Source: Campylobacteraceae bacterium
GTDB lineage: Bacteria > Campylobacterota > Campylobacteria > Campylobacterales > Sulfurovaceae
Reading direction: 5' to 3'
Assembly: GCA_027014605.1 (NCBI GenBank)
Contig: JALWDJ010000020.1
Location: 1 to 47,321, forward strand
Length of the DNA: 47,321 nucleotides
Position numbers and translations under genes: made by a program. Shown here piece after piece: positions 11,523 through 15,131 of the stretch (its first letter is position 1; every line of letters begins with the position of its first letter). The notes under the pieces were generated by a model. That model did not search any database. It saw only the letters and a program-made list of their open reading frames with translations, and was not told where the DNA came from.

Positions 11523-13736
11523 ATGATGCAGGAAAATAATAGTTTTTTTATAGAATTTTTCAAAAAAATTTTACCATATAAATGGTTAATTATATTTATA
11601 ACTTTTATGGGCATGTCTGCGTCTATTATAAATTTATATTTTAAACCATCCATATATGAAGCACAAGCTATTATAAAAGTCAAAACAGATAACAATAGAA
11701 GAGATATGGGTGAATTAAACCCTTTAGAGGATATATACTCATCTAATTCAGAAAATATTGACCAAGATTTAGCACTCTTACAGATATTTCATATTCATAA
11801 GAAAGCTATAGAGAAGTTAAATTTAAAAATACAATATTATAAAGAAGATAACTATAGAAAAATTGAACTACTATCTAATTTGCCAATAAAGATTTCAAAT
11901 ATAACTATTTTAGATAAAAATATTACAGGAAAATATATAAAAATAGTACCTCAAAAGAGTAACTTTTTAATTGAAATTAAAAATAAATCATATAAACATT
12001 TTTTTGACTATAATAGAGAAATAACTACTCCATGGTTCAAATTTACAGTGACTAAAGAGTCAAATAGTACTACTCCACTATATATAAAATTAAATGGTAG
12101 TAGCAGAGATATATATGAAAAGATAATAAAGAAAAATTTTAATGCTGTTCGATTAAATAAAAATGCTTCTCTAATAAAAATTACCTTTCAAAATAATTCG
12201 TCAAAGCGAGCTATCTTATATCTAAACAATCTAATGGAGACATATATAAAAGAGAGTATAATTAATAAGAGTAAACAGAATAACAAAATTTTAGATTTTA
12301 TAAATAGGCAACTTAAGAATACAGGTCAAGCACTAAAAAATTCAGAAAAAGAGTTAGAGAATTTTAGAATAAAAAATAGAGTAATAGAACCAACAAGACA
12401 GTCTCAAAGTCTATTAGATAGAATTAGCAATATAGAAGTTCAACTATCTCAAATAGATATAGAAAAAAAACTTATCAATACAATAACACATAATATTAAA
12501 AGAAAAAATAAGGATTTAAGCAGTATCACCCCAACCTTACAAGAGTTAGGAGATGAACCTACTATTAGAGTCATTCAACATCTACAAGAATTAGAGAGAA
12601 GAGTTAATGAGTTGAGTAGAGAATATACTCCTAAATATCCTGCCTTAAGAGCTATTAAAAGAGATATGAGACGAGATAGTCAAATCATTATAGAGAATAT
12701 CAAACAGTTACAAAAAAATATATCTCAAAGAGAAAAAAAACTATTAGAGTTAAGAAGTAAATATGAAAAAGAGCTAAAAGTGCTTCCAACAAAAGAGAAA
12801 AAACTTATTGATTTACAGAGAAATCATGAAGTTAATGCTAAAATGTACTCATATCTACTTGAAAAACAAGCAGAAAACAATATGAAAAAAGTAGCAACAG
12901 TATCTGATTATGAGATAATAGATAGTGCATACTCAAATGGAATCCCAATTAAGCCTAAAAGAGCTATGAATATAGCAATAACAACTATGTTTAGCCTTAT
13001 TGTAGGCATGCTTATAGCATATTGGTTAAGCTCCTTAATTGACAAATTACAAAATGCAAAAGAGATTAAAGAGCTTACAGATTTACCTCTATATGCAGAG
13101 TTACCAATACTAAAAAACTCAAAATATTTGACAAGAGACTCATCTCAACTATTAAAAAGTTTTAGAAATCTTAGAACAAAAATAAACTTTAGTCACCCAA
13201 AACATATGGGCAATGTAATATTAGTTACATCAAGCCCACAAAGAGAGGCAAAAACAAATATTGCATCTAACTTAGGCTATATATTTCAAAAAGCAGGATA
13301 TAAAACTCTAATTATGGATTTTGATATATATAATCCTAAAGTCCATAAAGCTTTTAATCTAAATTTAGGTATAGGAGTAAGTAACTATTTAGCTGGAGAG
13401 GAAAACAACATAGATATATTAATACAAAAAACAAAATATGAAAATTTAGATATATTAACAGCTGGTTCAGTGAAAGATGATGTATCAGAACTTGTACTAT
13501 CAAAAAGACTATATTTTCTAATAGAAATAGTTAAAAAGAGATATAACTACATATTTATAGATGCAATTCCATTAACTATGGAGGCAGATGTTTTATATAT
13601 TATGAAATATGCAGATGTAAATCTTATTACAGTACAAGAGGATTATACAAAAAAATCATTTATAAAAGATATTCAGACAAAAATAGGAGAGTATAAATTT
13701 AAAAATATCTCTATACTTGCAATTACAAATGGTTAA
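11523..13736 (+). CDS. Wzc-like polysaccharide co-polymerase with degenerate BY-kinase domain
   Basis: This 737-residue inner-membrane protein has the Wzz/Wzc architecture: membrane helix at about 20-40, long periplasmic coiled-coil region, second helix at about 483-503, and a cytosolic BY-kinase domain (about 515-737). Normally the kinase controls chain length and export by ATP-dependent tyrosine phosphorylation. Here the Walker A reads SSPQREAKTN (570-579), in which both P-loop glycines are replaced (by Arg and Ala). Walker A' (IMDFDIYNP) and Walker B (YIFIDAIP) remain. The protein stops at ITNG without a tyrosine cluster, and a terminator follows, so the end is natural. It may act structurally or with a separate kinase. 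Confidence 0.9.
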   Translation: MMQENNSFFIEFFKKILPYKWLIIFITFMGMSASIINLYFKPSIYEAQAIIKVKTDNNRRDMGELNPLEDIYSSNSENIDQDLALLQIFHIHKKAIEKLNLKIQYYKEDNYRKIELLSNLPIKISNITILDKNITGKYIKIVPQKSNFLIEIKNKSYKHFFDYNREITTPWFKFTVTKESNSTTPLYIKLNGSSRDIYEKIIKKNFNAVRLNKNASLIKITFQNNSSKRAILYLNNLMETYIKESIINKSKQNNKILDFINRQLKNTGQALKNSEKELENFRIKNRVIEPTRQSQSLLDRISNIEVQLSQIDIEKKLINTITHNIKRKNKDLSSITPTLQELGDEPTIRVIQHLQELERRVNELSREYTPKYPALRAIKRDMRRDSQIIIENIKQLQKNISQREKKLLELRSKYEKELKVLPTKEKKLIDLQRNHEVNAKMYSYLLEKQAENNMKKVATVSDYEIIDSAYSNGIPIKPKRAMNIAITTMFSLIVGMLIAYWLSSLIDKLQNAKEIKELTDLPLYAELPILKNSKYLTRDSSQLLKSFRNLRTKINFSHPKHMGNVILVTSSPQREAKTNIASNLGYIFQKAGYKTLIMDFDIYNPKVHKAFNLNLGIGVSNYLAGEENNIDILIQKTKYENLDILTAGSVKDDVSELVLSKRLYFLIEIVKKRYNYIFIDAIPLTMEADVLYIMKYADVNLITVQEDYTKKSFIKDIQTKIGEYKFKNISILAITNG

Positions 13737-13738
13737 AG

Positions 13739-13768
13739 TGTGAAAAATATTCACATTTTTACTTTTTA
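13739..13768 (+). terminator. Rho-independent terminator after the Wzc-like gene
   Basis: TGTGAA (13739-13744) and TTCACA (13750-13755) form a 6-base-pair stem with a 5-base loop, followed directly by TTTTTACTTTTT. It starts 2 bases after the stop codon. Confidence 0.75.
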
Positions 13769-13816
13769 TATTAAAAAACTCCATTTTAATTAAGAGTAAT
13801 TTTATCTGATTAAAAC

Positions 13817-13822
13817 TATAAT
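13817..13822 (+). promoter_or_regulatory. -10 element of the candidate small RNA
   Basis: A perfect TATAAT ends 7 bases before position 13830, the first paired base of the long closing stem. Transcription would therefore start at the foot of the RNA structure. No -35 box is evident, as is common for sigma-70 promoters in Campylobacterota. Confidence 0.6.
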
Positions 13823-13829
13823 GATATAT

Positions 13830-13950
13830 ATCTTAAGTATCTGATGGGAGAAAATCATTTCCATTCCTCCTTTTAAATTGATAAGATAACTAAGCCAATT
13901 GTTACTCCTCCCATATTTGTACAATTGTAGTTCTCATCAATACTTAAGAT
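13830..13950 (+). ncRNA. Candidate structured small RNA with two UCCUCC loops
   Basis: The region folds by hand into a closed three-way structure. ATCTTAAGTAT (13830-13840) pairs perfectly with ATACTTAAGAT (13940-13950). After a bulged C the stem goes on with TGATG/CATCA and four more pairs including two G-U. Inside are two hairpins: 13854-13882 (7 pairs with one bulge, loop 13861-13874) and 13896-13927 (7 pairs, loop 13903-13920). Each loop carries TCCTCC (13865-13870 and 13906-13911), complementary to Shine-Dalgarno sequences. The RNA has its own TATAAT, lies between a terminator and the rodA promoter, and encodes no good peptide on this strand. It resembles anti-SD regulatory RNAs in design but I do not recognise a family. 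The complementary strand folds similarly; the promoter favours this one. Confidence 0.6.
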
Positions 13951-13965
13951 TAATCACTCGTTTGA

Positions 13966-13971
13966 TATAAT
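13966..13971 (+). promoter_or_regulatory. -10 element of rodA
   Basis: TATAAT in the context TTTGATATAATTT lies 23 bases before the rodA ATG, which leaves a short leader of about 15 bases. It separates rodA transcription from the small RNA upstream. Confidence 0.5.
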
Positions 13972-13994: not shown

Positions 13995-15131
13995 ATGCAT
14001 TGGTTTCAATTTGACAGACGAATACTACAACAATTTAATTTTATTTTAATATTACAACTTATTCCACTATTTGTATTATCATCATATTTAGTCTATGAGA
14101 TAAAACCATCTCTATTTCAAAAACAGTTAATATATTATGGATTAGCAACAGGTGTATTTTTTATTGCATTCCTAATACCTTGGCGCAAATATCAGTGGTT
14201 AATTCCAATATCATACTGGATAAATCTTCTTCTTCTTCTTAGTGTTGATATTTTTGGAAAAAAAATACTTGGAGCTAGAAGATGGATTGAGATACCAATT
14301 ATTCATATAACAATTCAACCATCTGAATTTATTAAAATTACTGTACTTCTAATGTTAGGTTATCTTATTGTTAGAAATCCACCTCCAAAATGGGGATATG
14401 ATTTAAAAATGTTTATAACACTCTCTCTATATATACTTATTCCATTTATTCTTATAGCAAAAGAGCCAGATTTAGGAACAGGATTAGTTTTATTATTAAC
14501 AGGCTTTGGAGTCCTATTTGTTATTGGTGTTAGATTACGTATATGGATAACATTATTAATTATTATAGGATTATCAGCACCTTTAATATATACACATGGA
14601 TTAAAACCATATCAAAAACAGAGAATTGCAGATTTTCTAGGTAAACCTAGTTATCATGTTCAACAATCTATTATAGCAATAGGCTCTGGTGGCATGTATG
14701 GACAAGAGAAAGAGAATGCAACACAAACTCAACTAAAATTTTTACCTGTTTCATCAACGGATTTTATATTTGCATATTTGGGTGAAAGATTTGGTTTTGT
14801 TGGCATGTTATCAACTATAGTCCTTTATGCAATGCTTATTTTACATCTTTTATATATTGCAATAAGTAATAAAAAGGACTATTTAGTAAAAGTTTTTGCA
14901 TCGGGCATGGCTTTTCTATTTTTTATCTATATGGCTGTAAATATTTCAATGACCATGGGATTAGCTCCTGTTGTAGGACTTCCACTGCCAATGTTTAGCC
15001 ATGGAGGAACATCTTTTGTAATTTTTGCAATTATTTTTGGAATTTTAGAGAATTTACTTGCTTTTCGTTTCTATTTTATGTATAATACGGACTCGAAAAT
15101 AACGATGACAGGGACAAAAATTTCCCTCTAG
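13995..15131 (+). CDS. rodA: RodA, elongation-type SEDS peptidoglycan glycosyltransferase
   Basis: RodA polymerises lipid II into glycan strands for cell elongation, with a class B PBP as partner. The 378-residue protein has about ten membrane helices. SEDS marks are GARRWIEI...TIQPSEF (about 93-114), KEPDLGTGLVLLLTGFG (about 156-172), IAIGSGGMYGQ and the final VVGLPLPMFSHGGTSF. Together with the FtsW copy at 29346 this gives the usual pair; this one is assigned to RodA because the other lies between murG and ftsI. The C-terminal tail after FRFYFMYN is polar and seems non-conserved. Confidence 0.93.
   Translation: MHWFQFDRRILQQFNFILILQLIPLFVLSSYLVYEIKPSLFQKQLIYYGLATGVFFIAFLIPWRKYQWLIPISYWINLLLLLSVDIFGKKILGARRWIEIPIIHITIQPSEFIKITVLLMLGYLIVRNPPPKWGYDLKMFITLSLYILIPFILIAKEPDLGTGLVLLLTGFGVLFVIGVRLRIWITLLIIIGLSAPLIYTHGLKPYQKQRIADFLGKPSYHVQQSIIAIGSGGMYGQEKENATQTQLKFLPVSSTDFIFAYLGERFGFVGMLSTIVLYAMLILHLLYIAISNKKDYLVKVFASGMAFLFFIYMAVNISMTMGLAPVVGLPLPMFSHGGTSFVIFAIIFGILENLLAFRFYFMYNTDSKITMTGTKISL

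Follow-up and report, generated by a model that had tools for sequence, protein, structure and literature searches.

A comparison across genomes indicates that the window, which is the whole stretch of 47,321 nucleotides that was analysed, probably contains a gene for a trans-acting small regulatory RNA of Sulfurovaceae with a stress-type promoter, an anti-Shine-Dalgarno (anti-SD) loop and soxC as its best-supported target. It occupies the intergenic gap that follows a Wzc-like gene, whose end is at 13736, and precedes rodA, whose start is at 13995. Family-wide conservation, covariation and promoter conservation identify the locus as an RNA gene at the level of sequence, and uphold the earlier proposal of a small RNA with its own promoter and an exposed anti-SD loop. 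The host genome belongs to the Sulfurovum group; the titles of related MAGs name them as Sulfurovum sp., Campylobacteraceae or Campylobacterota. The features of the locus are collected in Table 1.

Table 1. Features of the small RNA locus and its surroundings (positions in the window).
Feature	Position	Strand	Basis or remark
Small RNA	13830-13950	+	~121 nt, bounds set by closing stem; covariance-model matches in the genus and other genera
-10 hexamer TATAAT	13817-13822	+	sequence; TATAMT retained in nearly all copies
Activator-type promoter element AATTAAGAGTAATTTTATC, HsrA/CosR-like, ~-42 to -24	13788-13806	+	conserved in four genera
Closing stem P1, 5' arm ATCTTAAGTAT	13830-13840	+	covariation, 32 sequences
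Closing stem P1, 3' arm	13940-13950	+	covariation, 32 sequences
Upper closing stem, 5' side	13842-13849	+	pairs with 13932-13939; compensatory changes, columns 16-20
Upper closing stem, 3' side	13932-13939	+	pairs with 13842-13849; same compensatory changes
Loop 1, anti-Shine-Dalgarno UUCCUCCUUUU	13864-13874	+	invariant in the genus, nearly so in the family
Loop 1, extended form UCCUCCUUUUAAA	13865-13877	+	
Hairpin 2, loop CUCCUCCC at 13905-13912	13896-13927	+	arm swap; loop sequence differs between species
-10 TATAAT of separate rodA promoter, directly 3' of the RNA	13966-13971	+	conserved; promoter scan
rodA, whose place 3' of the RNA is conserved in the genus; outside the RNA	13995-15131	+	TIGR02210

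BLAST with the stretch gave matches in 20 of 100 genomes, all being the genome of the window or members of its genus. Two further matches in the own genome were not copies, and correspond to the promoter element shared with a superoxide reductase gene and to a coding region. A covariance search, as suggested by the sequence-only reading, was run with a model built from 19 copies (R1) and found a single copy per genome in 25 of the 34 genus genomes, including 12 of the 13 high-quality ones, with E-values down to 1.9e-18. All inspected genus copies were located just 5' of rodA in the same direction. With the R2 model further copies were found in three other genera of Sulfurovaceae, some of them with borderline E-values (0.004-0.03). 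Each of these copies is immediately preceded by the same promoter, and its stem has been rebuilt with full pairing, the arms ATCTTAGGTATCG, ATCTCGGGTATCGGC and GTCTTAGGCGTCGG each occurring with its partner. In the genera g4, g7 and g9 the same RNA and promoter lie at unrelated loci, where the downstream genes vary and are often on the opposite strand. At the g4 copies (L117, L120, L141, L142, L144) a conserved protein (MYKKKKEKLYI..., roughly 114 aa) is encoded 5' of the RNA, at about -430 to -40 from it.

The R3 model, searched over 299 genomes of the order, matched only Sulfurovaceae, apart from a contaminated MAG and a single weak match that looks like chance. L143 lies in G245, a genome of another family; the contig most likely comes from Sulfurovaceae and was misbinned, given 7% contamination and an upstream gene of the same kind as in g4. 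L118 and L145 were set aside as chance model matches that have no stem and no promoter. No Rfam 15 family was matched by the RNA at gathering or permissive thresholds, and no description of a matching RNA was found in the literature searched, which supports the earlier suspicion that the RNA is undescribed so far.

Folding of the RNA as a single strand gave z = -2.9, with 1 of 200 shuffles as good. The perfect 11-bp arms that had been noticed in the sequence are present, and they continue in the upper closing stem (Table 1). As stand-alone evidence the 11-bp repeat was dropped, as the AT-rich window holds five such repeats and random sequence yields similar numbers (0-8, mean about 3). Chance alone often yields an 11-bp inverted repeat at such spacing in this sequence, so that one sequence by itself is poor proof, and the claim is based on comparative evidence instead. 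In 32 aligned copies 99.7% of the cells were paired over the 11 outer pairs of the closing stem P1, compared with 29-49% in slid controls, and seven pairs had changed on both sides. Swapping the arms between species reduced the predicted P1 pairing from -20.1 to -12.3 kcal/mol. As judged from this alignment the closing stem is proven by covariation, which provides the conserved structure expected of a trans-acting anti-SD small RNA.

CCTCC words were found at 13866-13870 in loop 1 and within CTCCTCCC at 13905-13912 in the loop of hairpin 2. The sequence UUCCUCCUUUU of loop 1 does not vary within the genus and is almost unchanged outside it, reading UCCUCCUCCUU in g9 and UUCUUCCUUUG in one g4 species. 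This nearly invariant anti-SD loop (UUCCUCC) is predicted to be exposed, with a mean unpaired probability of 0.89 for the motif. The loss of stem pairing and of the CCTCC words in relatives, which had been named beforehand as evidence against the RNA, was looked for, but the relatives retain the stem pairing and loop 1.

Targets were sought by pattern search of the genome and in a 447-kb sample. The full loop 1 complement TTTAAAAGGAGGA occurs in the own genome only opposite the RNA itself and once elsewhere, exactly at the Shine-Dalgarno sequence of soxC (TIGR04555, E=4e-186), and almost all soxC leaders of the genus read AAGGAGGAcAAATG. The predicted pairing of the RNA with soxC amounts to -16 to -21 kcal/mol in 10 of the 14 genomes that carry both and is weaker in G019, G021, G022 and G023, while equally good pairing was seen for 0-2 of 387 sampled genes, a sample that includes soxC itself. 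From this we infer that soxC is the best-supported target. Seven RNA-bearing genomes (G001, G007, G008, G010, G012, G013 and G016) gave no soxC match, which means that the RNA has further targets or that its match to soxC is fortuitous; the strong Shine-Dalgarno sequence on soxC could merely reflect high expression. Exact matching with TTTAAAAGGAGG throughout the genus gave no universal target, with soxC matched in three species and otherwise scattered matches. The short ORFs after GGAGG in L181, L221 and L206 were rejected, as they do not resemble genes. A hairpin TGTTCCGA-GGTATT...AAATACC is conserved in the soxC leaders (L232, L239-L254; some 70 bases 5' of soxC), where it stands directly before the Shine-Dalgarno sequence, and may be a separate regulatory leader.

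The anti-SD tail generally known for the 16S rRNA 3' end is CCUCCUUU. The invariant loop core equals this tail, and loop 1 is invariant also in species without a soxC match, as would be expected if the RNA mimicked the tail and acted globally, either by slowing translation in general or as a decoy for ribosomes or a protein, and had no particular mRNA as its target. We consider this unlikely, while granting it some chance, since the window's clade conserves the loop beyond the anti-SD word to UUAAAUUGAU, as longer target pairing would require, and since few mRNAs could pair well: GGAGG is present in only 9 and AAAGGAGG in 2 of 378 leaders, sampled from one genome and including a stretch chosen because soxC lies there. 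The earlier idea that one RNA represses many mRNAs finds no support in these counts in that form, and the scarcity of GGAGG implies that the RNA should be selective, not global.

It had also been proposed that the RNA carries two hairpins with UCCUCC in both loops. Loop 1 proved to be constant, but the second loop is variable: 30 of 40 copies have a C-rich word there and about a quarter lack it. Most species show a C-rich loop, three have AUUAGCCAU instead, and others have lost it. As to the hairpins themselves, the window's clade supports hairpin 2, as the own arms pair better than swapped ones in 14/15 (loops chosen from predicted folds). Hairpin 1 shows weak pairing in the window and near relatives, where it fails the flank-swap control (3/15), but it is clear in the other genera (15/15). 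A design in which both C-rich loops act on several mRNAs at once would fit the frequency of the second word, often within a covarying hairpin, and is improbable in view of the variation and loss of loop 2. According to the aligned copies, the constant part is one loop, loop 1, and not two.

The TATAAT located seven bases before the stem was found as described, and transcription of the small RNA is predicted to start at about 13829-13831. AATTAAGAGTAATTTTATC followed by TATAAT is kept 5' of nearly all RNA copies, with L110 and L113 diverging. The position before rodA (TIGR02210, E=7e-95, slightly under the curated cutoff of the family) in the inspected genus copies, together with the terminator scan of the locus, which found none 3' of the RNA, could suggest that it acts in cis on rodA, as a 5' leader or an attenuator, rather than as a free RNA. 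This is very unlikely, as a separate TATAAT lies between the RNA and rodA in every aligned species, and as the g4, g7 and g9 copies stand with the same promoter at other loci, as expected of a free-standing gene. Of the signals that had been read from the sequence as separating the RNA from its neighbours, the rodA promoter was confirmed, but the supposed upstream terminator is a weak A+T hairpin (13740-13754) with a T tract that fails the consensus scan. That the minus strand encodes a small type I toxin-like peptide, with GGAGGA followed by ATG and the plus-strand RNA as antisense antitoxin, is hardly credible: AAAAGGAGGAATGGAAATG does precede a short hydrophobic ORF in the window and the minus strand folds equally well, but the frame and ATG are not retained in relatives (g4 has AAAAGGAGGAAGAATAA..), the spacing to the stem differs by numbers not divisible by 3, and the conserved promoter sits on the plus strand.

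The promoter element of the small RNA is shared with other genes. A search of the 34 genus genomes with the element pattern gave 43 matches, of which 22 belong to thiol peroxidase (tpx), 11 to a small c-type cytochrome, 5 to the RNA and 5 to others, the spacing of the pattern missing most RNA promoters, whose spacer is one base shorter; the reversed-pattern control gave 0. The regulon promoter of the genus can be written as TTAAGAGTAAWTTTATCYKATTTAR-N2-TATAAT, found at thiol peroxidase in 22 genomes and at the cytochrome in 11 (G000:C30:1506-1540, L046; L062-L087). In the own genome the 19-mer element occurs exactly twice, at the RNA and, identically, upstream of a desulfoferrodoxin-type superoxide reductase gene (L002, G000:C31:2088-2106). 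In two species (L078, L287) the element is also located 5' of a LicA/choline-kinase-like gene, the function being guessed from sequence.

The binding site of HP1043 has been described as ttTAAG-5bp-tTTAAg (PMC5253667, PMC8345958), and CosR binds at -37 to -17 of ahpC (PMC3139631). TTAAG, 5 bp and TTTTAT at about -40 to -24 of the RNA resemble the HP1043 site, the first half matching and the second being degenerate, and the position is similar to that of the CosR site of ahpC. An HsrA/CosR orthologue is encoded in the genome (L127; best PDB matches 8uvx/8uuz with E ~1e-110 and HP1043 2hqr with E=1e-82). The receiver of L127 is rather typical, and a second related regulator (L128) has a degenerate-looking one. 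By these resemblances, a response regulator of the HsrA/CosR type most likely activates the RNA promoter.

In the proposed mechanism the RNA would be transcribed, most likely upon activation by the HsrA/CosR-type regulator, from a promoter common to thiol peroxidase and the small c-type cytochrome, and in the own genome superoxide reductase. The long closing stem would tie both ends of the RNA and protect it. This stem, together with the lack of a detected terminator, suggests maturation by RNase III as in CJnc190 of Campylobacter jejuni, the stem probably being the site of cleavage. The U-rich loop with UUCCUCCUUUU would pair with the Shine-Dalgarno region of mRNAs that have unusually long AAAAGGAGGA sites and block ribosome binding on these mRNAs. 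Under redox stress the RNA may thereby lower sulfane/sulfite dehydrogenase (soxC) and slow down the electron flow from sulfur. In its full form this model is put forward tentatively: within the HsrA/CosR redox regulon of chemolithotrophic Campylobacterota the RNA would be the arm that works at the RNA level, repressing soxC post-transcriptionally after maturation from its closed stem by RNase III.

Conservation of small RNAs in Campylobacterota has been reported to extend only to close relatives (PMC3847290), and the Sulfurovaceae RNA adds a family-wide case to this phylum. Sulfurovum-type bacteria are major sulfur oxidisers, and no small RNA of these vent and seep bacteria was described in the literature searched. 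With a covariation-proven RNA, a promoter regulon and a predicted target, post-transcriptional control of sulfur oxidation becomes directly testable in Sulfurovaceae that are in culture; if the model is true, the RNA would be a riboregulator of the Sox pathway.

The cuckoo/CcsR RNAs of alphaproteobacteria, alike in their presumed way of working, are stress-related small RNAs, and their loop sequence is anti-SD-like. They differ in that several are encoded per operon behind a DUF1127 gene, with an RpoH promoter, RNase E processing and a Rho-independent terminator; none of these traits was seen at the Sulfurovaceae RNA, which has a single copy per genome, is flanked by rodA and other genes and does not lie in an operon 3' of a DUF1127 gene. 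To our knowledge, RepG of Helicobacter pylori has no stem or promoter architecture in common with the Sulfurovaceae RNA. The likeness is that of a small RNA pairing with a G-rich leader, which for RepG is a phase-variable G-repeat (PMC8295292). CJnc230/FlmE of C. jejuni (PMC11187230) has a conserved single-stranded anti-SD word as well, and CJnc230 is processed by RNase III; its CCUU is located in the linker between two stem-loops and the RNA is derived from the flgE mRNA, whereas in the Sulfurovaceae RNA the closing stem encloses the loop with CCUCC, and the RNA has its own promoter. The closest system, likened by mechanism alone, appears to be CJnc190 of the same order, compared here by its description. 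Outside Sulfurovaceae the one statistically sound R3 match was in a contaminated MAG. The antisense partner CJnc180 was not seen at the Sulfurovaceae RNA, the targets differ, and the regulator may differ. In CJnc190 a C/U-rich loop pairs with the G-rich ribosome binding site of ptmG and blocks it, and RNase III releases the mature RNA from within a long intramolecular duplex (PMC8687705); the Sulfurovaceae RNA shares the pairing of a C/U loop with a G-rich ribosome binding site, as predicted, and the long duplex, which would be cleaved likewise.
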